From assembly GCA_943788145.1 (NCBI GenBank), contig CALSPD010000029.1, positions 1 through 64,000 of the forward strand: a stretch of 64,000 nucleotides of DNA, written 5' to 3'. Of the stretch, positions 1 through 13,296 are shown one piece after another; position 1 is the stretch's first letter; the number at the start of each line of letters is the position of its first letter. Both the position numbers and the translations under genes were made by a program. Under the pieces are notes generated by a model. The model did no database searches, was not told the DNA's origin, and saw only the letters and a list, made by a program, of their open reading frames with translations. Origin of the DNA: an uncultured Flavobacteriales bacterium (lineage in GTDB: Bacteria; Bacteroidota; Bacteroidia; Flavobacteriales_G; Salibacteraceae).

Positions 1-1993
1 TTATTACTATCAGCACTTAGCATGGCTGCCGCAATAAGCGGTATGAATGCTCATTCCATTATTGAAGTCGACTTTCAAGCTGGAATTCCTTCTGGATGGA
101 CTCAAACTACATTAGCGACTGACGGTGGATGGAATGCAGGAAATGCAACGTCACTATCAAGTTCATATTTTGCGATTACAGAGCATGGAAACTTTATTGG
201 AACTAACGATGACGGATGCAATTGTGACAAATCTGCGGATGTATTGGTTTCTGAAACCATAGATCTGTCGTCATACTCAGGAGAGTCTGTAAGACTTCGA
301 TTCGATTTATTCTTCTTCGAGGGAACGTACCAAGGTGCGACTGAAAGTTTTGAAGTGAAGGCTTCTACGAATGGAGGTTCAACTTGGACAAGCATTTATA
401 CAGCGGCAGGGGCTGCAGATTGGCAAAATGCCATTTTGGTTGATGCATCAGCTTACGCTGGTAACGCCAATGTGAATTGCTTTCGTATATAATGACGGAG
501 CTGGTTGGACGTATGGAGCTGGATTAGATAACGTTGTTGTTGAAATTCCAAATGATCATGACATTAAACTTGTTTCAGTTAAAGTTCCACCTTATTCTGC
601 AACAGATGTTCCTCAAACTGTAACAGGCGTAATTTCAAACCTTGGTGCGAGTGCCGAGAATTCGATTACCGTTTCTTGGACGGATGGAACAACCACGAAG
701 ACTGCTACTTTATCAGGTACACTAAACCCAGGTGAATCTATGAGTTTCACTCACCCTGATGGAATTGCTCTAGCAAGTGGAGCAAGTATTTCAGTCGATG
801 TTACTGCAATGGTTACTGGAGATGCTGATGTAAGCAACAACACGCTTTCTGATTATTCAGTAGACGGAGTTGCATTTTGGCCAACGAAGGCTGTAGTAGG
901 TGAAGAAGCAACAGGTACATGGTGCGGATGGTGCCCACGAGGTATGGTTGGGATGGAATACATGGAAGAGACTTATGAAGATGAATGGATCGGTATAGCA
1001 GTTCACAATAGTGACCCAATGGAAAACGCAGATTACGATACATGGATGGGCGGTCAAATAAGCGGATACCCTAGCGGACTTGTTGATAGAGAGGGAGATA
1101 TTGATCCTGCGGCTGCAACATTAGAAGCTAATTTCCTTGCTGCAATTGAGAAGTTTGGATATGCACGCATAGAAGTAATGCCGTTAATTGATGCAAACGA
1201 TGAGGTTGAGATTCGAGTTCGAACCAAATTTGCGGTTGATATGGATCAAGACATGAGCTTGGCAATTATGATCGTGGAAGATGATTTGACAGGTACTTCA
1301 GCCGATTGGAATCAAACAAACTATTACAGTTTTCAATCTCAAAACTTACCGCTAGTTGGAGCGGGTTTTGATTGGCAAGCTGAAGGCGGTTCTGTTTCTG
1401 GTGTAACATATAATGATGTGGCTCGTGAGGCGCTTTTAGGTGTTGAAGGTGATAATAATATCATCCCAAGTTCTGTAAGTGAGAATGACGTTGTAAGCTA
1501 TACGATGGATAAATTCACTTGGAATGGTGATTATGACAAGGATAACTCAACCATTGTTGTTATGCTTATTGACGATAATTCAGGAGAAATAATCAACGCA
1601 GTAGAATCTCACCTTAAGAACTTGATTATTGTTGAGCAAAATGGAGTGACGTATTATGTGATTGATGGTGATACTTACCAATTGTTTGCTGGAACCGACT
1701 TGGTGCCAACAGGCTTAGCTTCAGTTCCTGCAGTTGAAGATTTGATGGTTTATCCAAACCCAGCTTCTAACAATGTGAAAATTGTAGGTACTGGAATCAC
1801 TAGTGAGTCACAAATCAATGTGTATGACATGACTGGAAGATTAGTTTTGAATCAATCACAATTAGGAATTCAATCTACGAACATGGGTTCTGGTGTCGAA
1901 ATCAATGTATCTAACCTTCCAAATGGAGTGTATAATTTGGTAGTTGATACCGACATAAGGACCATGAAGCAGACGATTTCTGTGATGCACTAG
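1..1993 (+). CDS. T9SS-secreted Omp28/thioredoxin-like protein with cleaved-adhesin-type domain; 5' partial and frameshifted
   Basis: The reading frame is open from base 1, and the first residues look like the end of a signal peptide (LLLSALSMAAAISGMNAHS), so the start lies upstream. Residues up to about base 480 resemble a jelly-roll cleaved-adhesin/MAM-type domain (ends in DNVVVEIP after the shift). A CARDB-like beta domain follows (about 556-860), then an Omp28-type thioredoxin-like core with TGTWCGWCPRG (CGWC codons 923-934). The C-terminus (about 1745-1990) is a T9SS type A sorting domain with VYPNPASNNVKI and a terminal Ig-like fold. At the TTT run 481-483 the frame shifts: removing one T joins the segment ending near base 480 to FVYNDGAGWTYGAG without loss. 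This looks like a sequencing error or a recent mutation. The substrate of the CxxC core is unknown. It is the first of three tandem paralogues. Confidence 0.8.
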
Positions 1994-2019
1994 TCACGAT
2001 TTTCGATAAAAGAAAAATG

Positions 2020-2048
2020 AGCCTCGATCTTTGTATCGGGGCTTTTTT
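2020..2048 (+). terminator. Rho-independent terminator after the first Omp28-like gene
   Basis: The hairpin arms are AGCCTCGAT (2020-2028) and ATCGGGGCT (2035-2043), with one G-T pair, followed by a run of T to 2048. It lies 27 bases after the stop codon. Confidence 0.85.
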
Positions 2049-2150
2049 ATGCCCAATGTGGTTCAATACGTAACTAGGGATTCAATTTGATTCTGTTTGA
2101 TGAATGGAATTATGGTCTTGACGGCTTATATTGGTCCAAAATTTATAAAA

Positions 2151-4238
2151 ATGAAAAAACTATTACTCAGCGCAATTGCCGTTACAGCAGCTCTGACATC
2201 GCTTCAAGCACAGTTCTATGTGATCGAAGAGACAGGGCCAGTTAGCGGGTATGCTTGGGATGGGACAGGAACAACCATCATGGCTTCGCCTAACAACGAT
2301 GTGTATTCATCCATCCAAACACTTCCATTCTCTTGGACATATTACGGTCAAACGGTAACTCAATATATCGCCAGTGATAACGGATATATAACGTTTGAAA
2401 CAGGAGCAACTACAAGCTATAGCGCAAACACTGCAATCCCATCAACTGCAGGACCAAACAATGCTATTTATGCTGCTTGGGATGATTTAAACCTAATCGG
2501 AGCAGGGACACCAGATGTTATAAAGTCTTGGACTTATGGCACTATGCCAAACAGGACACATGTTATTCAATGGCATAGTGTTAATCAAAACGCGGTCACG
2601 AACTCATATTTGTACGCGGCTATCTTAATTCATGAATCTGGCGATTTTGACATCGTTATTCCATGGGCTCAAGGAACTTCAGGAAGCTTCACAATTGGAT
2701 GTGAAGATGCAACAGGCGCTGACGGAATTGAAATCGATGGCAGTCCTAATTATGCTCTTCCCAGCAGTGGGTCAGATCCAGTTGATGATTTAGTTTTTCA
2801 CTTCTTATCTGGAACACAACCAGCAGTTGATCCTAAGCTTAGCTCAGCTATTATACCAGGATTTGCGTCTCCAAGCGGTTCTAGAAACATTACAGGAAAA
2901 GTTCAAAACCTTGGGGCAAACACTTTAAGTTCCTTTGATATTACTTGGACAGATGGATCAATTACTAAAACATATACCGTAAACAATTCGTTAGCAAGCG
3001 GTGCTTCTTACGAGTTTGAGCACCCTGATCAAGTTACTGTAGCGGCTGGCGCGACTTCTAACATTGAAGTAAGTGTCGTTGCGGCTAATGATGCGAATTC
3101 TGCTAATAATACCATCTCCGGAGATGTAGACGGTTTTGTTTTTGTTCCACATAAAGTGGTAGTAGGAGAAGAAGCAACAGGAACATGGTGCGGATGGTGC
3201 CCAAGAGGTATGGTAGGAATGGAGTACATGGAAGAAACCTACGAAGATGATTGGATTGGTATTGCTGTTCATAACAATGATCCCATGGAGAACGCTACAT
3301 ATGACGCCTGGATGGGTGGTAAGATTTCTGGTTACCCTAGTGGATTAGTAGATCGTAAAGCTGATATTGATCCTTCCTCGGCTAGTCTTGAAGCGGCATT
3401 TAACGTAGATATCAATGAGTTTGGCGTAGCAAACATTGAAGTATTGCCTTTAATTGATGAAAATGACGAAGTAGAGATTAGAGTTCGATTTCATTTTGCA
3501 ACAGATTGGTCAGATGATGTCCGAGTTGCTGTAATTATCGCTGAAGATGGACTAACAGGAACGTCTAACGATTGGAGACAAACCAATTATTACAGTTACC
3601 AATCTCAAAACCTTCCTTTAGAAGGAGCAGGTTTTAACTGGCAAGCTGAGCCATCTTATGTAACTGGAGTTACTTATAATGATGTAGGACGTGAGCTATT
3701 GACTGATGTTGATGGAGATAATGACATAATAGAAGCACCTTTCTCTGAAAATCAAGTATTGAATATCACTCTTGATAAATTCACATGGAATAGTGACTAT
3801 GACATGGACAATTCGACCATTATAGTCATGCTTATTGATGATTCCTCTGATGAAATAATCAATGCCGGTGAGTCTCATTTAAAAGATCTTGAAATCGTTG
3901 AACAAAATGGAGTTACTTATTACATTATTGACGGTGATACATTCCAACTTTGGGATGGAACTGATTTAGTTCCAACTGGAATGGCAAACGTTAAGCCGGT
4001 TGATTTGAATGTTAAGGTTTATCCAAACCCATCAAATGGGTTGATCAATGTTGAACTTTCGGAGGCTGCTGAGGTTGTATTGCTCGATATGGCCGGAAGA
4101 GTTGTTGCGCGTTCTAATATATTCGGAACAACAAATATTGTCCAATTCAATGGACAAATTCTTGATGCAGGAGTTTACAATGTTGTAATCAAAACAGAAT
4201 CTGTAACTCAAACAGAGCGAGTTACAATAATCAAATAG
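2151..4238 (+). CDS. T9SS-secreted Omp28/thioredoxin-like protein with nidogen-like N-terminal domain
   Basis: I start the gene at ATG 2151 because MKKLLLSAIAVTAALTSLQA is a clean signal peptide; an in-frame ATG at 2097 would put 18 non-signal residues in front. The protein is 695 aa. Residues about 20-230 form an all-beta region with a nidogen-like look (SDNGYITFE, AIYAAWDDLNL). A CARDB-like domain follows (about 245-335), then the Omp28-type core with VVGEEATGTWCGWCPRG and SGYPSGLVDRK. The protein ends in a T9SS type A sorting domain (VYPNPSNGLINVEL, final VTIIK). The core is nearly identical to the genes on both sides while the N-terminus is unrelated. This supports modular duplication. 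It is expected at the cell surface or secreted through T9SS. CxxC suggests thiol chemistry, but no substrate can be inferred. Confidence 0.85.
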   Translation: MKKLLLSAIAVTAALTSLQAQFYVIEETGPVSGYAWDGTGTTIMASPNNDVYSSIQTLPFSWTYYGQTVTQYIASDNGYITFETGATTSYSANTAIPSTAGPNNAIYAAWDDLNLIGAGTPDVIKSWTYGTMPNRTHVIQWHSVNQNAVTNSYLYAAILIHESGDFDIVIPWAQGTSGSFTIGCEDATGADGIEIDGSPNYALPSSGSDPVDDLVFHFLSGTQPAVDPKLSSAIIPGFASPSGSRNITGKVQNLGANTLSSFDITWTDGSITKTYTVNNSLASGASYEFEHPDQVTVAAGATSNIEVSVVAANDANSANNTISGDVDGFVFVPHKVVVGEEATGTWCGWCPRGMVGMEYMEETYEDDWIGIAVHNNDPMENATYDAWMGGKISGYPSGLVDRKADIDPSSASLEAAFNVDINEFGVANIEVLPLIDENDEVEIRVRFHFATDWSDDVRVAVIIAEDGLTGTSNDWRQTNYYSYQSQNLPLEGAGFNWQAEPSYVTGVTYNDVGRELLTDVDGDNDIIEAPFSENQVLNITLDKFTWNSDYDMDNSTIIVMLIDDSSDEIINAGESHLKDLEIVEQNGVTYYIIDGDTFQLWDGTDLVPTGMANVKPVDLNVKVYPNPSNGLINVELSEAAEVVLLDMAGRVVARSNIFGTTNIVQFNGQILDAGVYNVVIKTESVTQTERVTIIK

Positions 4239-4257
4239 ATTTTAGCCTTGATTTGAA

Positions 4258-4289
4258 AGCCCCATCTGAAACGATGGGGCTTTTTTTTT
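4258..4289 (+). terminator. Rho-independent terminator after the second Omp28-like gene
   Basis: A perfect stem AGCCCCAT (4258-4265) pairs with ATGGGGCT (4274-4281) and is followed by nine T residues. It lies 20 bases past the stop codon. Confidence 0.9.
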
Positions 4290-4319
4290 GCACAACTTGT
4301 TATAATCTTAAGTCACTGG

Positions 4320-4352
4320 TTGTCAATTATTCAAATAACCTTATTACATTGG
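4320..4352 (+). promoter_or_regulatory. Bacteroidota-type promoter for the third Omp28-like gene
   Basis: TACATTGG at 4345-4352 is one base off the Bacteroidota -7 motif TAnnTTTG. A TTG lies 22 bases upstream at 4320-4322. The pair sits 17 bases before ATG 4369 and just downstream of a terminator, so the third paralogue probably has its own promoter. Confidence 0.45.
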
Positions 4353-4368
4353 TGCAAAATATTAAACT

Positions 4369-5838
4369 ATGAAAAAAGCATTACTTCTATCATTAATTAT
4401 TGGAAGCGCAGGTGCTGGAGCTTTTGCTCAGGTAGATGCTAAACTCGTCTCGGTAGAAATCCCTTTCTACGTAAGCCCTGAAGGCTCAGCGAAAATTACT
4501 GGTGTTGTGAAAAACAACGGTTCCAGCGCCTTGTCCAATTTTGATATAAATTGGACAGATGGTTTTAATACATTTAGCTATGAAGTAACTTCTAGCATTG
4601 CGAGCGGTGCGAATTATAACTTCACGTTACCCGATGAAATTACAACCGTACCAGCAGGTTTTTCTGCCAATATAGAGGTAACTGTAGTTGCCGATGGAGA
4701 TGCAGATGCCACCAATAATTCGCTATCAGAGACAGTGGAAGGAATTCCTTTTGTACCTGAAAAAGTTGTTGTTGGTGAGGAAGCCACAGGTACTTGGTGT
4801 GGATGGTGTCCTCGTGGAGCTGTTTGGATGGAGTACATGGAAGAGAATTATCCGGAACAATGGATCGGAATTGCCGTGCACAACAATGATCCAATGGAAA
4901 ATGCAGATTATGACAGCTGGATTGGCGGTGAAATCAGCGGATATCCAAGCGGTTTGGTTGATCGGAAGTCTGACATTGATCCTTCAAATTTTGAGGCTAA
5001 CTTTTTGACAAGTGTTGATGATTTCGGAGTTGCACGTATAAAGGTTGAGCCATTTATTAACGATCAAGACGAAGTATGGATTCGAGTTCGAACACAATTT
5101 GCAAAAGCATCAGATAAATCAATGCGTATTGCAGTTGCACTTGTCGAGGATAATGTCACAGGAACAACCTCAGGTTACAATCAGGCCAATTATTACAGCT
5201 ATCAATCTCAAAACTTACCATTAGTTGGGGCAGGGCACAATTGGCAACAAGAGCCTGTTTATGTTCCTGCTGCTGACATGGTTTATAACGATGTTGCGCG
5301 TGAGCTTTATACCAACGCTAGTGGTGAGTCTGGCAGTATTCCTAGCTCGGTTGCCGCTGAAGAAGTGGTCATTTTTGAAATTGATCCTTTCACTTGGAAT
5401 AGCGATTACAAGAAAGAAGATTCACGCATCGTAGCCATGTTGTTGAACAATTCAAATGGAAACGTAATAAATGCCACAGAATCACACTTAATCGCTTATG
5501 AAGAAGTTGAAGTGGGTGGAACAACGTACTATGTAATCGATGGTGATACTTATTTGATGAGTCCTGAAGGTCAAATTGTTCCTGTTGGAATCGCAAGCGC
5601 ACCAGCAAAAGATCTAAATGTTCAATTGTATCCAAATCCTGCTACGGATATGCTAAACATCAAAGGGTTAAATGGAATTTGCAACGTTGTTGTTTACGAT
5701 ATGAAAGGCTCAGTTGTTCTTAAATCATCTGTAGTTGACAACAGGCTAAACATCGAGTCGCTTCAGGCGGGAGTTTATGCCATTGAAATTGAGAACAAAG
5801 GATTGATTTCAGTGGAGAAATTTACAATACTGAAGTAG
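4369..5838 (+). CDS. T9SS-secreted Omp28/thioredoxin-like protein, short form
   Basis: This 489-aa protein opens with a signal peptide (MKKALLLSLIIGSAGAGAFA). It has no N-terminal adhesin or nidogen-like part. It starts directly with the CARDB-like domain (about residues 22-125, DAKLVSVEIPFYVSPEG), then the thioredoxin-like Omp28 core (KVVVGEEATGTWCGWCPRG, HNNDPMENADYDSW, SGYPSGLVDRK). The T9SS type A sorting domain is at about 415-489 (LYPNPATDMLNIKG). It is the minimal version of the three-gene array and defines the shared unit. The Omp28 family is known as outer-membrane or surface proteins of Bacteroidota. A redox role for CGWC is inferred from the motif only. Confidence 0.87.
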   Translation: MKKALLLSLIIGSAGAGAFAQVDAKLVSVEIPFYVSPEGSAKITGVVKNNGSSALSNFDINWTDGFNTFSYEVTSSIASGANYNFTLPDEITTVPAGFSANIEVTVVADGDADATNNSLSETVEGIPFVPEKVVVGEEATGTWCGWCPRGAVWMEYMEENYPEQWIGIAVHNNDPMENADYDSWIGGEISGYPSGLVDRKSDIDPSNFEANFLTSVDDFGVARIKVEPFINDQDEVWIRVRTQFAKASDKSMRIAVALVEDNVTGTTSGYNQANYYSYQSQNLPLVGAGHNWQQEPVYVPAADMVYNDVARELYTNASGESGSIPSSVAAEEVVIFEIDPFTWNSDYKKEDSRIVAMLLNNSNGNVINATESHLIAYEEVEVGGTTYYVIDGDTYLMSPEGQIVPVGIASAPAKDLNVQLYPNPATDMLNIKGLNGICNVVVYDMKGSVVLKSSVVDNRLNIESLQAGVYAIEIENKGLISVEKFTILK

Positions 5839-5854: not shown

Positions 5855-5887
5855 AAAAACCTCGAGCGTCAAGTTCGGGGTTTTTTT
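5855..5887. terminator. Terminator between the convergent Omp28-like gene and hutI
   Basis: The stem AAAACCTCGA pairs with TCGGGGTTTT. It is T-rich at the plus-strand 3' side and A-rich on the other side, so it could serve both converging genes. It fills the 47-base gap between the two stop codons. Confidence 0.75.
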
Positions 5888-7130
5888 ATGCCTCAAAAAT
5901 TTCACCATTAATGTATACAGAATCAATCACAGGACCACCAAAATGATAAGGAATTAGCGCCAATGATTCAATTGGATTGGTTACTATGAAATTTGCTCTT
6001 TTTCCTATCGTGATCGATCCAAGTTCATTATTCAATTCAAGGGCGGCAGCTCCATTTAAGGTTGAAGCATTTATTGCCTCATTTGGCGTCATATTCATTT
6101 TGAGACAGGCTAGCGAAAGCACAAAATTCATATTGCCAGAAGGCGTTGATCCAGGATTAAAATCAGTTGCCAGAACAAGTGGAAGCCCAGCATCAATTAT
6201 GGTCCGAGCCGGAGTGTAGGGTAGGCTCAAGAAAAAGGAGCAAGATGGAAGCGCAACGGCTAACGTGTTACCTAAGCTCAATGCCTGCAAATCTTGATTA
6301 TTAAACTCTTCAAGATGATCAACGCTCAGCGCATTTCTTTCAACACAGGCTTGAACACCGCCCAGAATGTTAAATTGATTTACATGTACCTTTCCTCTCA
6401 TTCCGTGTAAATTTCCGGCATCTAAAATGGCCTTACAATGGTCTAAATTGAAATAACCTTTTTCACAAAAAAGATCGATGTAATCTGCTAGTTCCTCTTC
6501 AACAACTTTAGGAAGAATGTCTCTGATCACATGTTCCACATAAGCATCAACGCGACCTTTATAGGCCTCGGGTAGGGCGTGAGCACCTAGAAAAGTTGCC
6601 TTTATCGGAATAGGTGAAGTTTGCTTTAGTCTTTTAATTACTCGAAGCATTTTCAGCTCAGCCTCTAATGATAATCCATATCCACTTTTGATTTCTATGC
6701 CACCAGTGCCCAATTGTATGAGTTTGTTTAAACGAAGTTTTGCATCTTCATATAGGTTGTCTTCTGACATGTTGGTAAGCTGTCGAGCGGAGTTAAGTAT
6801 TCCTCCACCTCGATTCGCAATTTCCTCATAACTCAAGCCATTGATTCTATCCTCAAACTCCTTTTCACGCCAAGCTGCAAATACTAAATGCGTGTGACTA
6901 TCTACATAGGTAGGGAGGATGCTACGGCCTTCGACATCAATGATTTCATAGTTCTTGAAATCTTCTTTTTTCAATTCAGATTCGGGACCAAAATCTTCAA
7001 TTCGCCCATTCTTTACCGATAGCCAAGCATTGTTGATATTTGGAAGAATATTCATAGCTGAACCGGATACAATTTTTTCGTCTTGTGAACGTATTTGAGC
7101 TAAATTTCGGATTCCAACAAACAATTTCAT
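5886..7130 (-). CDS. hutI: Imidazolonepropionase (histidine degradation)
   Basis: HutI hydrolyses imidazolone-5-propionate to formiminoglutamate, the third step of histidine breakdown, in the cytoplasm. The 414-aa protein is an amidohydrolase of the usual family length. Metal ligands are visible: the HTH motif at residues 79-81 (DSHTHLVFA), HVNQFN, the SVDHLEE histidine and the late aspartate in LATDFNPGSTPSG. The family-typical GTGGIEIKSGYGL segment is present. The other hut genes are not in this window. The start codon is only 11 bases from the start of the divergent gene at 7142, so the promoters must overlap the opposing gene. Confidence 0.95.
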   Translation of the reverse strand: MKLFVGIRNLAQIRSQDEKIVSGSAMNILPNINNAWLSVKNGRIEDFGPESELKKEDFKNYEIIDVEGRSILPTYVDSHTHLVFAAWREKEFEDRINGLSYEEIANRGGGILNSARQLTNMSEDNLYEDAKLRLNKLIQLGTGGIEIKSGYGLSLEAELKMLRVIKRLKQTSPIPIKATFLGAHALPEAYKGRVDAYVEHVIRDILPKVVEEELADYIDLFCEKGYFNLDHCKAILDAGNLHGMRGKVHVNQFNILGGVQACVERNALSVDHLEEFNNQDLQALSLGNTLAVALPSCSFFLSLPYTPARTIIDAGLPLVLATDFNPGSTPSGNMNFVLSLACLKMNMTPNEAINASTLNGAAALELNNELGSITIGKRANFIVTNPIESLALIPYHFGGPVIDSVYINGEIFEA

Positions 7131-7141
7131 AGGATCAAATT

Positions 7142-7915
7142 ATGAGACGCAATATTACTTTTTTGTGGCTAGGGTTTTTGGTTCTATTGCTTTTTCAAGT
7201 GCAATCTGAAGGGTATGCTCAGTCTTCTGCAACCATTACTTCTGACAGCTCGTCTGTTCAAACACAATTAAAACCCCAATGGACGATAGGTCTTAATGTC
7301 ACCACTTTAGGTGTTTTTTTTCTAGGTGGTTATGCAGGGCAAAACGGTCATTTCGGACTAAATATAAAGCGTATTTCAGGGCCAAAGGCAATTCGCTTTT
7401 CAGCGTCCGTATTTCCTCAAGTGTTTGCGGATTATTATAATCTTTCCAATAGTATTCCAATCGAAATTCAAGGCCAAAATGTCGTTTATAGAAATCAAAA
7501 CATTAATGGAACCATTGTAAGAGCGGGAATTGGGTTTGAACGGGGTTGGAAATCAGGCAAAAGGGGGCGGAGAAATGTAGGGTGCGATTTGAGTGTAAAT
7601 ATGCTTCGAGGGTATGTTCAGAGTTACGAGATAATAAGAAACCTTGAATCACGCGAAATCATTGAATGGCCTTTAACGATTGAAACGAAGTCATATACGT
7701 CAATTGGTCCTGGGATTTCTCCCTTCGTTGGATATGAATTTCATGCCTGGAAACGTCTAGGTTTCAACTTAGAGTTAAAAGCGGATTTAACTGCATTTTT
7801 TGGAGACCCTATTGGATTTGATCAAAATGGAAATATGGTTCGTCATCGCATCTTTTATGACATGCGTATGTTTCCCCTTGCTGAGTTCAGAATGCACTAT
7901 CGATTATGGAAATGA
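7142..7915 (+). CDS. Uncharacterised secreted or outer-membrane protein, first of a paralogous pair
   Basis: The 257-aa protein has an N-terminal signal peptide (hydrophobic LWLGFLVLLLFQVQ, then GYAQ). The rest shows alternating hydrophobic and aromatic strands and ends in an aromatic residue region (FRMHYRLWK), as in small outer-membrane beta-barrels. I do not recognise a named family. The C-terminal part (GPGISPFVGYEFHAWKRLG, LELKADLTAFF, FPLAEFRMHYR) matches the next gene ([33 protein letters not shown]), so the two are tandem duplicates. Their ends overlap by 10 bases, which suggests coupled translation. A membrane location is inferred; no function can be assigned. Confidence 0.6.
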   Translation: MRRNITFLWLGFLVLLLFQVQSEGYAQSSATITSDSSSVQTQLKPQWTIGLNVTTLGVFFLGGYAGQNGHFGLNIKRISGPKAIRFSASVFPQVFADYYNLSNSIPIEIQGQNVVYRNQNINGTIVRAGIGFERGWKSGKRGRRNVGCDLSVNMLRGYVQSYEIIRNLESREIIEWPLTIETKSYTSIGPGISPFVGYEFHAWKRLGFNLELKADLTAFFGDPIGFDQNGNMVRHRIFYDMRMFPLAEFRMHYRLWK

Positions 7916-8691
7916 AAGATTTAGGAAAATGTGTTTTGCCATTACTTATTGTTTCAGCGATCGGTATAGCTTTTAAATCTCAAGCTCAGCTACACGATGA
8001 ACTCATTATAATGGAGGAAGGTGGTTCGATTGAGCAAATTCCTTCCACAACGATTGATTCGAGCAATTTTTGGATGTTGAAAATGGACATTTCATCGCCA
8101 ATCGCACAGCTCGCTGGAAGTCAGAATACTGCCGATTTCCATTATGGAATACAGCTGAAACATGTTCGAGTAGCGAATGGGTTTAGGTTTACAACCGAGT
8201 TCTATCCGGATATTGACGCAGGTTTTTTTTCTCATTCAACGCGAGAAGTGGCAGTTGTGAACGATAATATCCAGTATATAGATATATACACCCGAACGAA
8301 TGTGCTTCGATTTGGTTTTGGTTATGAACGAAGATTTAAAAAGGACTGGGGAGTTTCATACATTGGAATGGATTATAACTGGCAACGAAGTGTAAGTAGT
8401 TTACTCACTAATAGTTATCAATTGAATGTCGCATTAAATGAAATTGATAGCATACAGCCTGCTCATCATGCAAGAACGCGCGGATTCGGAATGGGTTTAT
8501 CGCCCCTCGTTGGATGTGAAATTCCAATTGCAGGAGGATTCGGAATTTCCGTTGAAATTAAAGCGGATGTCGCCTTGAGCATAAATGAAGGATATGCTAT
8601 TGATGATGAAGGAATAATTACAAAAACGGGAGCCGGATATTATTTCAGAACCTTTCCTTTGCTCAACTGTAGGTTACATTATCAGTTTTAA
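7906..8691 (+). CDS. Uncharacterised secreted or outer-membrane protein, second of a paralogous pair
   Basis: The 261-aa protein starts at ATG 7906 or, equally possible, the in-frame ATG at 7912. Both precede a signal peptide ([18 protein letters not shown]). The body has strand-like alternation with a tyrosine/glycine-rich pattern ([16 protein letters not shown]) and finishes in HYQF, a terminal phenylalanine typical of outer-membrane beta-barrels. It shares the C-terminal motifs of the preceding gene. It lies 2 bases before aroC, so the pair may be co-transcribed with a housekeeping gene, although no functional link is evident. Function unknown. Confidence 0.6.
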
Positions 8692-8693
8692 GT

Positions 8694-9767
8694 ATGACGG
8701 GCAACACATTTGGAAAGCTTTTTTGTTTAACAACGTATGGCGAGTCACATGGCGCGGCAATAGGCGGTGTAATAGAAGGCTGCCCTGCTGGATTGAATCT
8801 GAATCTTGCCCAGATTCAATCAGAGCTGCATCGTAGAATGCCAGGGCAATCCAGCATTTCTACCCAGCGTAAAGAAAAAGACGAGGTAGAATTTCTTAGT
8901 GGGATATTTGAAAATATTACCCTCGGCACACCAATAGGCTTCATCATTCGAAACAAGGATGCGAAGGCAAAAGATTATGATCACTTAAAACATGCATATC
9001 GGCCGTCACATGCCGATAATACCTATGATGTCAAATATGGACAACGTGATCATAGGGGCGGTGGTCGGTCATCAGCCCGCGAAACTGCTTGTAGAGTAGT
9101 TGGTGGGGCCATTGCTCGGCAGTTGCTCGAAAAAGCCGGAGTCGAAGTTACAGCCTATGTTTCTCGAATTGGTGCTGTTGAGTTAACTCAATCTTATCAA
9201 TCGCTCAACTTCAAACAAATTGAAGAAAATATGGTGCGATGTCCAGACTTGATGATCGCGAAGAAAATGATTGCCCATATTGAGGATGTTAGATCTCAGG
9301 GCGATTCTGTGGGCGGCATAGTGACCTGTGTTATTAAAAACACGCCCAAGGGGCTAGGAGAGCCAGTTTTCGACAAACTTCACGCTGATTTAGCCAAGGC
9401 CATGCTAAGTATTAACGCGGTAAAGGGATTCGAATATGGAAGTGGTTTTAAGGCCGCGTCAATGACAGGTTCTACCCACAATGATACATTCAACAGCGAC
9501 TTATCAACACGAACGAATCATTCGGGCGGCATTCAGGGTGGAATCTCGAATGGAGAGGACATATATTTTAATGTGGCATTCAAGCCAGTTGCCACCATCA
9601 TGAAACATCAGGATTCGGTTAACAACAGGGGTGAATCAATTGTCTTAAAAGGAAAAGGCCGTCATGACCCCTGCGTTGTTCCTCGAGCAGTGCCCATTGT
9701 TGAGGCGATGGCTTTATTAACAATGGTCGATCATTTATTGCGCAACAGAACATCTAAACTAAACTGA
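8694..9767 (+). CDS. aroC: Chorismate synthase
   Basis: AroC makes chorismate from 5-enolpyruvylshikimate-3-phosphate with reduced FMN, the last shared step of aromatic biosynthesis. The 357-aa length is normal. The family signatures are present: [18 protein letters not shown] near residue 16, the [18 protein letters not shown] segment near 121 and [18 protein letters not shown] near 320. aroE, an earlier step of the same pathway, is also in this window at 22841-23557 but not in the same operon. Confidence 0.97.
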
Positions 9768-9793
9768 ATTGGGTTTTATTTTCGGTCGTAGAA

Positions 9794-11911
9794 ATGAGTG
9801 TGATTAAATCTTTCTTTTTTATTGTGTTCGGATTACTTCTGCTCTCTTCAGTTTCCGCTCAAACAGTGACCTCGAAGAGTTTTGAAGTAGAGATAAATCC
9901 GGATTGCTTGGGGTCTGAAGACGCCAAGACTATGAAGTATTTAGAAGTGGCGCGCGATCGAAAAAAGAATGATAAAGACAAGCGCGTTGATGCATTGAGA
10001 AAAGCATTGGAAGAAGATCCAACGTGCGCAGAAGCGCATTACTACCTTGGGCTTGAATTACTGCGAACAGCAATTTCTAAGAGCGCATCCTTAAAACCAG
10101 CTGTTTTTGAACTTACTGAGGTCGTAAGGCAGTGTCCCGATTTTCATTTTGAACCATATTATTATCTAGCGACCATAGCTCTAGGCAACGCAGAATATGT
10201 AGAGGCCGCCAAGTATTATGAGAAATACCTTGAATTATCGTCTAGCTCGCAGGAGCGATTAAATGAAGAGCGAGAAGCGACCATTCAATTGGACTATCAA
10301 TTCGCTAAATTCTTTGCTGATGCTTACAATAATCCCGTACCATTTAATCCTGAAAAAGTAGAAGGAGTCACCACGGACGAAGATGAATTTTTACCCCTGA
10401 TTTCAACCGATAACCAAAGTATGTTGCTGACGAGACGTTATACTGTTCAATCTGAAGTACGCACATCGGTTATAGCAGAAAAGGAAATGTATTTGGAGAA
10501 ATTTGTGCAAGCAAAACGCTTACCTTCTGGTTTTGAATCGGGTGAACCGTTGCCAAGTCCCTTCAATGAAAACCAAGCTTATCATTACGGAGGTGCATCG
10601 CTTAGTCTGGATAATAAGCATATCTATGTAACTATTTGTGTTCCAGCGCCTGGTGGTTATACAAATTGTGATATTTATACAGCCGATTTGGAGTATAAAA
10701 CCGACAAAGAAACCGGCCTCCTTGGATACCATTGGTCACCGTTGGAAAACATGGGGGCGAAAATTAATACCAAAGACGGATGGGAGTCTCAACCGAGTAT
10801 ATCAGCGGACGGTAAGACCTTGTATTTCTGTAGTGCTCGCGAAAACAGTAGGGGGATTGATATATATTATTCAGAAAAGGACGAATTCGGGACTTGGGGC
10901 GAGGCTAAAAACATCGGTCCTCCAATTAATACTGATTTCAACGATAAAACTCCCTATATGCATAGTGATTCGCGCACATTATACTTTGCTTCCGATGGTG
11001 CTGGTAACGATAACGCCCATTTGGGCTTTGGAGGCTATGATGTTTTTTATACGCGACAAAACGAAGATGGGACTTGGAGTAAGCCCAAAAATTTGGGTCA
11101 CCCGATAAACACGGCTGGAGATGAGCAGGCGTTTGTCGTAAGTACTGATGGAAAGCGGGTTTATTATTCTGCAAAAGATCCGAAATTGAGCCAATCTATT
11201 GATATCTGGAGTTTTGAATTGTATAAGGAAGCTCGACCTGATAATGTTGTTTTTGTTAAAGGGAAACTAACGGATGAACAGGGCGAACCTGCACGAAACG
11301 CCACCATTGAGCTGAAAACCATGCAATCGAAGGGAATTACAAAGGTGGATGTTGACACAGATGACGGGGCATACGCTGCGGTGATTGTTGTTCGGGATAA
11401 TGAAGATGTAGTGCTCAATGTCAAGGCTGATGGAATGGCGTTTCAATCTAAGCTTATCGAAGCAGAACTGGATAAGAATGTGCCAAAGCAAAGCAGAACA
11501 GATGAGGCAAGCGAAGAGGTGAGTACGTTGAAAGAAATTGACCTAAAAGTTGAGGAGGTTAGGGAAGGGGGCGTGTATAAAATTGAGGATATTTATTACA
11601 ATTCAAATTCCGCGCAGATTACTGAAAAGTCAAAATACATTCTAGGTGAGTTTGCTTTGTATCTAAATGATAATAAGTCGATTAAGTTGGCAATTCATGG
11701 GCATACAGATAACGTTGGGAAGTCGGAGGCGAACTTGGCATTAAGTACAGATCGAGCCTTCTCCGTAAAGCAATTTCTGGAATCTTTAGGTGTTGCGCCT
11801 GAGCGGATTCAATACAAAGGTTTTGGAGAAACCGTTCCTTTTGCTAGCAATGAAACAGCCGAAGGACGCGCATTAAATCGAAGGACAGAATTTTTGATTC
11901 TAAGTAAGTAA
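9794..11911 (+). CDS. PorE-like envelope protein: TPR, beta-propeller, CRD and OmpA domains
   Basis: The 705-aa protein has a signal peptide (LLLLSSVSAQ). In order it carries TPR-like helices (about residues 45-165), a PD40/WD40-like beta-propeller (about 190-470; repeats such as SQPSISADGKTLYFCSA), a carboxypeptidase-regulatory-like beta domain (about 485-555, VFVKGKLTDEQGEPARNATI), and an OmpA C-terminal peptidoglycan-binding domain (about 590-705, GHTDNVGKSEANLALSTDRA, NRRTEF). This domain order matches PorE, the Porphyromonas T9SS component that anchors the machinery to peptidoglycan. Here the signal peptide lacks an obvious lipobox. Several Bacteroidota paralogues share this architecture, so PorE itself is likely but not certain. 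Confidence 0.75.
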   Translation: MSVIKSFFFIVFGLLLLSSVSAQTVTSKSFEVEINPDCLGSEDAKTMKYLEVARDRKKNDKDKRVDALRKALEEDPTCAEAHYYLGLELLRTAISKSASLKPAVFELTEVVRQCPDFHFEPYYYLATIALGNAEYVEAAKYYEKYLELSSSSQERLNEEREATIQLDYQFAKFFADAYNNPVPFNPEKVEGVTTDEDEFLPLISTDNQSMLLTRRYTVQSEVRTSVIAEKEMYLEKFVQAKRLPSGFESGEPLPSPFNENQAYHYGGASLSLDNKHIYVTICVPAPGGYTNCDIYTADLEYKTDKETGLLGYHWSPLENMGAKINTKDGWESQPSISADGKTLYFCSARENSRGIDIYYSEKDEFGTWGEAKNIGPPINTDFNDKTPYMHSDSRTLYFASDGAGNDNAHLGFGGYDVFYTRQNEDGTWSKPKNLGHPINTAGDEQAFVVSTDGKRVYYSAKDPKLSQSIDIWSFELYKEARPDNVVFVKGKLTDEQGEPARNATIELKTMQSKGITKVDVDTDDGAYAAVIVVRDNEDVVLNVKADGMAFQSKLIEAELDKNVPKQSRTDEASEEVSTLKEIDLKVEEVREGGVYKIEDIYYNSNSAQITEKSKYILGEFALYLNDNKSIKLAIHGHTDNVGKSEANLALSTDRAFSVKQFLESLGVAPERIQYKGFGETVPFASNETAEGRALNRRTEFLILSK

Positions 11912-12056
11912 GGGACGGTCCAAGTTCGATAGCAAATTTGATTTGGTTTTACCCGCAAGGTGAGCCTTTTCTAAAATCTCTAATTACCTAAGTGACGGTA
12001 ATTATGGAGACCTGTGATCGCACTTTTAAGTTAATAAGTGGTGAAGAATATTCATG

Positions 12057-12086
12057 AAATAAAAATGGCCCTTGACGGGCCATTTA
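12057..12086 (-). terminator. Terminator of tRNA-Ser
   Basis: On the minus strand the stem AATGGCCC pairs with GGGCCATT around a 5-base loop (12064-12085), followed by TTTTATTT. It starts a dozen bases after the tRNA 3' end. Confidence 0.85.
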
Positions 12087-12097
12087 ATCTTTCTGTG

Positions 12098-12182
12098 CGG
12101 AGAGTGAGGGATTCGAACCCCCGGAGGTATTACCCTCAATAGTTTTCAAGACTACCGCAATCGACCACTCTGCCAACTCTCC
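12098..12182 (-). tRNA. tRNA-Ser (UGA)
   Basis: The minus strand folds as a class II tRNA with acceptor stem GGAGAGT/ACTCTCC and G as discriminator base. It has the D-arm GGCAGAGTGG, an anticodon loop CTTGAAA giving UGA, a long variable arm, and the T-arm with GGTTCGAATCC-like sequence. CCA is not encoded. Two further bases on each side (GC...GC) also pair, so ends could be placed two bases further out. Confidence 0.96.
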
Positions 12183-12186
12183 GCTG

Positions 12187-12219
12187 CAAAAGTAAAAATG
12201 TTGTGATACGGTAAATCAA
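12187..12219 (-). promoter_or_regulatory. Promoter of tRNA-Ser
   Basis: On the minus strand TACTTTTG (12187-12194) matches the -7 motif TAnnTTTG exactly, 4 bases from the tRNA 5' end. A TTG at 12217-12219 lies 22 bases further upstream. Both fit the sigma factor recognition pattern of Bacteroidota. Confidence 0.7.
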
Positions 12220-12282
12220 AAAATCATCTTCGATTGAAAATAATCGGAAACCCTCATGATTATTGAGTTGTAGAACCGTGGT

Positions 12283-13296
12283 CTATTTAAAAATGGAGAC
12301 TTCTGATAGGCCTTGATTGGTTTTTACTGCTCGGAACATGCTTGAAGTGTTGAAAGGCATCGAAACATTTCCTTGTCTATCCATAGCGATTAATCCACCT
12401 TTACCACCCAAGTTTTCTAATTCTTGGTGAATGACGTAGGAAGCGGCCTTATCCAAATCCCACCTTCTGTGAATCATTAAAGCGGAGACCTCATGGGCAA
12501 CAGCTAAGCGGATAAAATACTCACCATGTCCGGTACAAGATACCGCACAAGACTGATTATTTGCATAAGTGCCCGCTCCAATTATTGGCGAATCTCCGAT
12601 TCGATTGTTCTTTTTGTTGGCCATACCACCGCTACTTGTTCCTGCTGCTAGATCTCCATTTTGATCAAGCGCAACAGCGCCCACTGTTCCAAATTTTAAA
12701 TCGTTGATACCATTCTTTCTTTTATCAATCGGCAAGGTCGGTTCAACCTCTGATTTGTCTTCTGATTTCAACAATTTTATACGTTCCAAATTTTGCTCGG
12801 TTATAAAATAGGCAGGTTTTTCCATGGCTAGACCTGATTTTTTTGCAAACTCATCAGCCCCTTTTCCACTGAGGATTACATGAGGACTCTTGGTCATTAC
12901 TATTTGAGCCGCTGTGATAGGATTCTTTGTTAATTGCACACCAGCAACCGCACCAGCATTCAGTGTTTTTCCCAACATTATAGATGCATCCATTTCAGCG
13001 ATTTCCTCGTTACAAAGGACACTTCCTTTTCCAGCATTAAATAGTGGGCTGTCTTCCAAAGTTTTAATAGCAGCAACGATTGCCTCCTCCGATGTACCTC
13101 CTTCTAAAAGAATGGTATAGCCAATACTTAGAGCGTCATTTAGTTTCTTTTCGTAAGCCTCTATTTCGGCTTCGGAAAGATTCGCTTGGTTCATATAACC
13201 AGCGCCCCCATGAATCACAATTCCAATCGGCTTTTCCTGTCCAATTAGACTTGTAATGGTAAGTGTCATAGCGAGTAGTAGGAGCAGTCGTTTCAT
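12283..13296 (-). CDS. Isoaspartyl peptidase / plant-type L-asparaginase, exported
   Basis: This N-terminal nucleophile hydrolase family cleaves isoaspartyl dipeptides and asparagine after self-processing into two subunits. The 337-aa protein has a signal peptide ([17 protein letters not shown]), then HGGAGYM near residue 29. The family-typical [20 protein letters not shown] segment is present. The processing site is at [19 protein letters not shown], where the threonine of GTVG is the expected nucleophile. GNRIGDSP-like ([16 protein letters not shown]) and HGEYFIR motifs follow. Export suggests action in the periplasm on damaged peptides or asparagine. It is transcribed toward the tRNA-Ser gene with no operon partner. 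Confidence 0.92.

Follow-up and report, generated by a model that had tools for sequence, protein, structure and literature searches.

The stretch of DNA analysed here (the window) comprises 64,000 nucleotides from an uncultured Flavobacteriales bacterium of the family Salibacteraceae (GCA_943788145.1, contig CALSPD010000029.1), and it begins with three consecutive plus-strand genes, gene A (1–1993), gene B (2151–4238) and gene C (4369–5838). We propose that these genes encode surface proteins of the type IX secretion system (T9SS) similar to HBP35 of Porphyromonas gingivalis, in which a thiol-disulfide oxidoreductase core is joined to exchangeable heads (here called fronts), and that the site behaves in evolution as a modular array; we put the probability of this reading at about 0.68. 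It is carried by the domain layout, the homology to HBP35, the SprA and PorU homologues in the same genome, the conserved location of the array, the incongruence between fronts and cores among relatives, and a sharp boundary of identity in a gene pair from another genus.

Domain layout of the three genes

All three proteins pass the gathering cut-off of the Pfam family Omp28 (PF11551; 45.3, 48.4 and 50.8 bits against 34.9), match the sorting domain Por_Secre_tail (PF18962) above its curated cut-off as well as TIGR04183, and share the motifs VVGEEATGTWCGWCPRG and SGYPSGLVDR, in line with the first-pass annotation, which had described three consecutive genes with CGWC cores and T9SS C-termini. 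Gene A consists of an adhesin/MAM-like front (open reading frame 1–492), an immunoglobulin-like (Ig) domain resembling CARDB, a thioredoxin/Omp28 core with its CGWC codons at 923–934 (positioned by translation in the frame from 482) and a type-A T9SS sorting domain (1748–1990). Gene B starts with a signal peptide and a front of another kind, the N front (2151–2822, residues 1–224), which finds weak matches elsewhere in the genome, none better than E 2e-9, followed by a CARDB-like Ig domain, a core with CGWC codons at 3189–3200 and a sorting domain (4017–4235). Gene C has a signal peptide, a CARDB-like Ig domain (about residues 23–126), a core with CGWC codons at 4798–4809 (C144 and C147) and a sorting domain (5626–5835) matched by 8glk_D, and it carries no front. 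Each gene is followed by a hairpin and a T run, as had been claimed, at 2019–2044 and 4255–4284 on the plus strand for genes A and B and at 5855–5885, given without a strand, between gene C and a convergent hutI-like gene (−14.9, −20.6 and −18.9 kcal/mol; z −2.7, −4.7 and −4.9, respectively).

The cores had been called nearly identical, which holds for some 90 residues of the thioredoxin part (76–79% protein identity between gene pairs) but not for the remaining core (49–71%). The corresponding values are 39–54% for the CARDB-like Ig domain and 30–37% for the sorting domain. The front of gene A is unrelated to that of gene B, the 23% identity in their global alignment being background level. 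Between genes A and B, the thioredoxin segments are 74% identical in DNA and 48% identical at third codon positions.

The three-gene array is thus real, but gene A is not a single open frame. Position 1 of the window coincides with the start of contig C29 in a 2.89-Mb draft genome (G000), so that gene A lacks its first codons; moreover, its first open reading frame (1–492) ends in a stop, and the remainder is read in a different frame. The front of an intact relative matches window positions 4–474 in one frame and 473–664 in the next, and the break near 474 (470–492) represents either a pseudogene or an assembly error at the contig end. Slip-strand phase variation was rejected as its cause, as 470–492 contains, by eye, no long homopolymer or short repeat. 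One may ask whether the array is decaying or artefactual, with the site undergoing birth and death of genes; we consider this rather unlikely, and for gene A it can be true beside the reading proposed above. The break and the contig end are 474 bases apart, and the array of a relative of the same genus (G004; L064, that is G004:C6:166000-185000, at 6831–12500) has an in-frame TGA at about 8232 in its adhesin-front copy and repeated breaks in its N-front copy with the neighbouring genes open, which is either array decay or sequencing error. However, genes B and C are unbroken, and so is each of the two array genes in G001, G003, G006, G007 and G011; gene A continues for about 500 codons without a further stop, with a thioredoxin part 86–87% identical to those of sister genomes.

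A thioredoxin-like core related to HBP35

The array core is predicted to be thioredoxin-like. An AlphaFold2 model of gene C, built on a 14-row alignment (mean predicted local distance difference test score, pLDDT, 69; 55 for residues 141–150), shows in order the Ig domain, a beta strand (134–141), CGWC, a helix (147–160), the thioredoxin-like region (171–203 at low confidence), a beta domain and the sorting domain. With modest confidence, C144 and C147 start the helix after the beta strand, which agrees with a location of CGWC at the N-terminus of a thioredoxin helix. A Foldseek search with this model placed HBP35 (5y1a) at the top of 1495 matches (E 1e-12). In the VIA comparison, HBP35 reached Z 19.8 over 273 residues (root-mean-square deviation 13.2, across several domains), followed by 2axo at 14.8, and CARDB folds matched residues 17–128 with Z 11–12.5; the other rows were mostly single Ig domains of large enzymes. 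A profile of the core likewise found HBP35 (E 9e-5), with protein disulfide isomerase next (E 0.003), and aligned CGWC on WCGYC. All 14 aligned proteins retain both CxxC cysteines and the proline of the GYP loop (P193). The CxxC motif is also the only cysteine pair common to all same-genus cores compared, except for one copy in G008 (G008_N2, L103:6294-8465), which has an N front, a core and a sorting domain and has lost both active-site cysteines.

HBP35 (PG0616) is a surface protein in which, as in the array, a thioredoxin domain (WCGYC) is followed by a beta domain and a T9SS C-terminal domain. According to the published reports, its C48 and C51 are needed for an insulin-reducing thioredoxin activity that was abolished by their double mutation, it binds hemin (PMC2907840), and it reaches the cell surface via the Por system, i.e., the T9SS (PMC3120885). 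The gene C cysteines align with C48 and C51, the array sorting domains are of type A, and the same genome encodes a SprA homologue (in two pieces at contig ends) and a full-length PorU-type sortase (1271 bits). We note two differences between the array and HBP35. First, the alignment spans gene C residues 128–488, and the fronts and the CARDB-like domain have no counterpart seen in HBP35. Second, no array with exchanged fronts is described for HBP35 in the literature that we found. Redox chemistry on secreted proteins had initially been regarded as little described; since HBP35 is T9SS-secreted and has demonstrated thioredoxin activity (PMC2907840, PMC3120885), T9SS-secreted thioredoxins are already described. 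In the literature found, the role of extracellular thiol chemistry is treated for HBP35 only.

Two families of the Omp28 superfamily fit the array poorly. The array proteins score 35.1, 18.3 and 26.3 bits against the Omp28 lipoprotein family NF033782, far below its cut-off of 150; they bear T9SS sorting domains and do not belong to this lipoprotein subfamily. For the Omp28-related selenoprotein family NF045500, whose core is related, the score is 19.8 bits against a cut-off of 200, and the active site of the array consists of two cysteines; this distant relation hints at redox chemistry in the superfamily. A selenoprotein reading was discarded, as the score is far below the cut-off and the in-frame TGA of G004 lies after the active site.

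The array proteins would be exported by Sec and would then pass the outer membrane through the T9SS by means of the type-A C-terminal domain, where processing by a PorU-type sortase would leave the product either anchored at the cell surface or set free. For the CxxC thioredoxin/Omp28 core, the most likely role is that of a thiol-disulfide oxidoreductase whose targets are extracellular or surface proteins; a front, where present, would position the core on a partner or polysaccharide. The main rival to an oxidoreductase is binding without redox chemistry, in which the array proteins would be surface receptors or traps for proteases or haem, with the core as a scaffold and the cysteines structural or vestigial. 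A precedent is PROKKA_00502 of Paraprevotella clara, an Omp28-related, T9SS- and PorU-dependent, surface-attached protein with several Ig-like domains, which was shown to recruit trypsin and has no protease activity (PMC9477747); that text makes no mention of thioredoxin or disulfide, and the protein is likened to the array by its description. The reported hemin binding of HBP35 (PMC2907840) and the G008 copy devoid of CxxC cysteines point the same way. However, the 14 of 14 invariance of the cysteines and the GYP proline, the thioredoxin part being the slowest-changing part of the gene, and the catalytic role reported for the homologous HBP35 cysteine pair (PMC2907840) argue against mere binding, which we therefore regard as unlikely.

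Exchange of fronts and cores at the array site

T9SS thioredoxin-like genes adjoin ftcD in 12 of the 13 genomes of the genus, and in the thirteenth (G002) the contig ends at ftcD; the 12 include the window's genome, whose ftcD sits at the end of a separate contig (C21). The other flank is mostly hutI and aroC, except for a guaA-like gene in G003 and a contig end within the array in G012; these gene names are presumptive assignments from the sequences. The array comprises three genes in G000, G004 (two of them broken) and G008, two in G001, G003, G006, G007, G009 and G011, one in G005 and G010, and at least two in G012. Five genomes have WCGWC cores (G000, G001, G004, G006 and G012), six have STCxPC cores (G003, G005, G007, G008, G010 and G011), and one has frontless CTFC cores (G009). 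Since the core is thioredoxin-like by model and profile and the modular array recurs in relatives, the first-pass proposal stands on both of the points on which it had been staked, a thioredoxin fold and arrays in related genomes.

Fronts and cores do not change in step across this site. Front A occurs in eight genomes, five times with WCGWC and three times with STCxPC, and front N is likewise found on both core families. Between the core groups, A fronts are 41–58% and N fronts 33–56% identical, whereas the thioredoxin segments are only 17–37% identical; within core groups, most pairs show stronger conservation in the thioredoxin segment than in the front. Expressed as the ratio of between-group to within-group tree distance, the A front shows 1.9x against 9.2x for its core, and the N front 2.0x against 6.2x (the 19-row core tree omits the two G009 copies, which are frontless and belong to another core family, as well as G008_0, G008_N2 and the fragmentary N copies of G004 and G012). 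A sliding profile across six A-front proteins ran high–low–high, with between-group identities of 16–70% in the front, 9–45% in the Ig domain and core, and 36–40% in the linker and sorting domain; within-group identity stayed high across the core. The linker before the sorting domain (YVIDGDTY...VPxG) was found, among the loci compared, only in loci of this genus and with both core types, the pattern being unmatched in G001, G008 and G010.

The STCxPC cores of the genus are 41–48% identical to STCxPC-type cores of other genera, suggesting that they form an old family rather than WCGWC cores diverged in place. Profiles of the two families align over the last 101 columns only (probability 94), and a search of the STCxPC cores against Protein Data Bank (PDB) sequences gave no meaningful match. 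As the fronts are shared, two old core families thus appear to lie beneath the same heads at one site. Outside the genus, an N-like front is found with a WCGWC core (L052) and with STCxPC-type cores (G013 and G016). Exchange may have run either way, i.e., the core was replaced or heads were moved onto resident cores. Core families share sorting domains as well, since in G024 a WCGWC gene lies near an STCGPC gene and the two are 24% identical in the thioredoxin part and 78% in the sorting domain. Frontless copies have more than one origin: the one in G004 groups with an N core (100/99), whereas the one in G000 does not.

Within the STCxPC group, cores cluster by genome and not by front, and approximately unbiased (AU) tests rejected a single clade of A cores (p 8e-9) and of N cores (p 6e-18); clustering by genome is seen in G007, where the A and N cores pair with support 100/99, and in G011. 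In G013, which belongs to another genus, an A-front and an N-front gene stand in tandem at a different site, beside what we take by eye to be sirtuin-like and malic-enzyme-like genes. Their fronts are 25% identical, whereas their thioredoxin segments are 98% and their C-terminal domains 100% identical (DNA 98% and 99%, third positions 95% and 98%), and the adjoining Ig domain is 57% identical in DNA. The DNA identity rises from about 55% to 93–99% some 15 codons before the first cysteine. Concerted evolution by gene conversion is thus indicated in G007 and G011, by clustering, and in G013, by a sharp boundary. One study describes long-lasting concerted evolution as rare in prokaryotes (PMC6053082). 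Taken together, these comparisons indicate both recombination between fronts and cores and gene conversion at the site. Fronts, central cores and sorting domains would recombine among neighbouring genes, WCGWC and STCxPC cores would replace one another beneath the same fronts, and gene conversion would, in some genomes, hold neighbouring cores alike with the fronts remaining distinct.

Several observations weigh against the proposal of redox-active proteins in a modular array. The AlphaFold confidence is modest around the active site, and a cis-proline geometry was not seen. The loss of CxxC in G008_N2 implies that redox chemistry is not required of every copy. A fronts group by core type (100/100), so that the core swap may go back to a single exchange event on one branch, and N fronts do not reject following core type (p 0.23); the position of the G001 N front in the STCxPC group was accordingly dropped as proof of exchange. 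As the two core families are weakly similar in the thioredoxin part, some of the core distance could be due to fast divergence. In the window, the cores are 48% and 45% identical at third positions against 46% in the Ig domain, which indicates no recent conversion and excludes recent duplication or conversion as the cause of their likeness; the A and B cores fall with sister-genome genes that carry the same front (91/97 and 98/98). Lastly, the genomes are draft assemblies, and gene A and two G004 genes are broken in frame. Plain tandem duplication and divergence, with ordinary paralogues, fronts gained or lost once and core families that are merely diverged copies, would account for cores mostly following fronts in the window and its sister genomes, for the third positions and for the A fronts grouping by core type, but it is very unlikely in view of the between-group distance, raised 6–9 fold in cores and 2 fold in fronts, the STCxPC cores lying nearer to those of other genera than to the WCGWC cores at the same site, the G013 boundary, the AU tests and the mixed G024 array.

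The first-pass annotation saw in the array a secreted thiol-active family whose members differ only in a targeting or binding module. The thioredoxin-like CxxC core speaks for the first part; the second does not hold, as relatives exchange cores and sorting domains too and one copy lacks both cysteines. A bolder version of our proposal, which we hold tentatively and at somewhat less than even odds, is that the cores serve as redox cartridges that can be swapped: at one conserved chromosomal site, heads and sorting domains would be retained, the catalytic core would give way to that of another thioredoxin family, and conversion bounded just ahead of the thioredoxin domain would keep it uniform per genome. 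If so, one cell would display several heads with a common redox chemistry. Accounts of surface diversity in Bacteroidota usually centre on adhesin or protease variation; here, a head and a presumed enzyme would vary independently, with selection or conversion keeping the enzyme uniform per genome as the heads differ. If the cores are active, the site offers natural head and core combinations for probing extracellular thiol chemistry in free-living Bacteroidota. T9SS thioredoxin proteins, Omp28 proteins and rearranged domains in the T9SS surface proteins of P. gingivalis are already known; among the open-access papers listed by our searches, none described, by its title or the opening of its abstract, thioredoxin-family core exchange under conserved heads at one site together with core conversion.

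Fronts, further copies and neighbouring genes

The gene A front had been labelled a cleaved-adhesin type, of which a weak likeness remains, but the Pfam cut-off is missed: InhA-like_MAM scores 15.7 bits against 26.9. Among eight related A fronts, InhA-like_MAM was found in six (best E 8.5e-5) and Cleaved_Adhesin in two (best E 0.0064), so front A may weakly resemble cleaved adhesin/MAM domains without family membership. Its profile also weakly matches the Lys-gingipain adhesins 4itc (E 0.004) and 3m1h (E 0.08); in gingipains (Kgp/RgpA), however, the adhesins come after the protease, whereas the front here comes before the thioredoxin-like core. Domain rearrangement among P. gingivalis T9SS surface proteins, including gingipain adhesins, has been reported (PMC5266723). 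Front A contains an invariant C-N-C (once C-D-C) within N(D/E)DxCxCDKS, at window 217–225 and in the A fronts of seven same-genus relatives. This sole additional conserved cysteine pair might bind a metal or act as a redox partner to the core.

For the gene B front, the label nidogen-like found no backing: a Pfam scan gave no nidogen (NIDO) match in it or in any of seven N-front members, and a PDB sequence search with the N front family returned 0 matches. The gene B model, front included, has a mean pLDDT of 56 and falls below 50 in the front, which thus provides no usable fold.

Beyond gene C, the convergent minus-strand gene at 5886–7130 is hutI-like, presumably encoding imidazolonepropionase, and also flanks the array site in relatives. 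Two 42-base stretches, each beginning a little upstream and spanning the start of gene B or gene C (2126–2167 and 4344–4385, respectively), are 79% alike, possibly a shared promoter or leader. The window's genome holds a second Omp28 pair (G000:C5:49709-51529), with frames of 412 and 362 amino acids, the first below the Pfam cut-off. It also holds, outside the array, a separate WCGWC gene with a different front (G000:C9:24844-26118, L070; likewise L068, L069, L071 and L105), lectin- or carbohydrate-binding-module-like by eye and of a kind seen in other Bacteroidota metagenome-assembled genomes (L053–L062). In other genera of the family (L072, L149, L150, L152 and L156), T9SS thioredoxin-like genes of a similar kind are found next to sirtuin-like and malic-enzyme-like genes, several of them near an Omp28-looking lipoprotein gene. 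Finally, in G041 (L153:3543-5240), a TlpA/redoxin-like gene with WCGPC and a T9SS-like C-terminus adjoins an N-front STCGPC gene, which by its sequence adds a further putative thioredoxin-fold type to such pairs.

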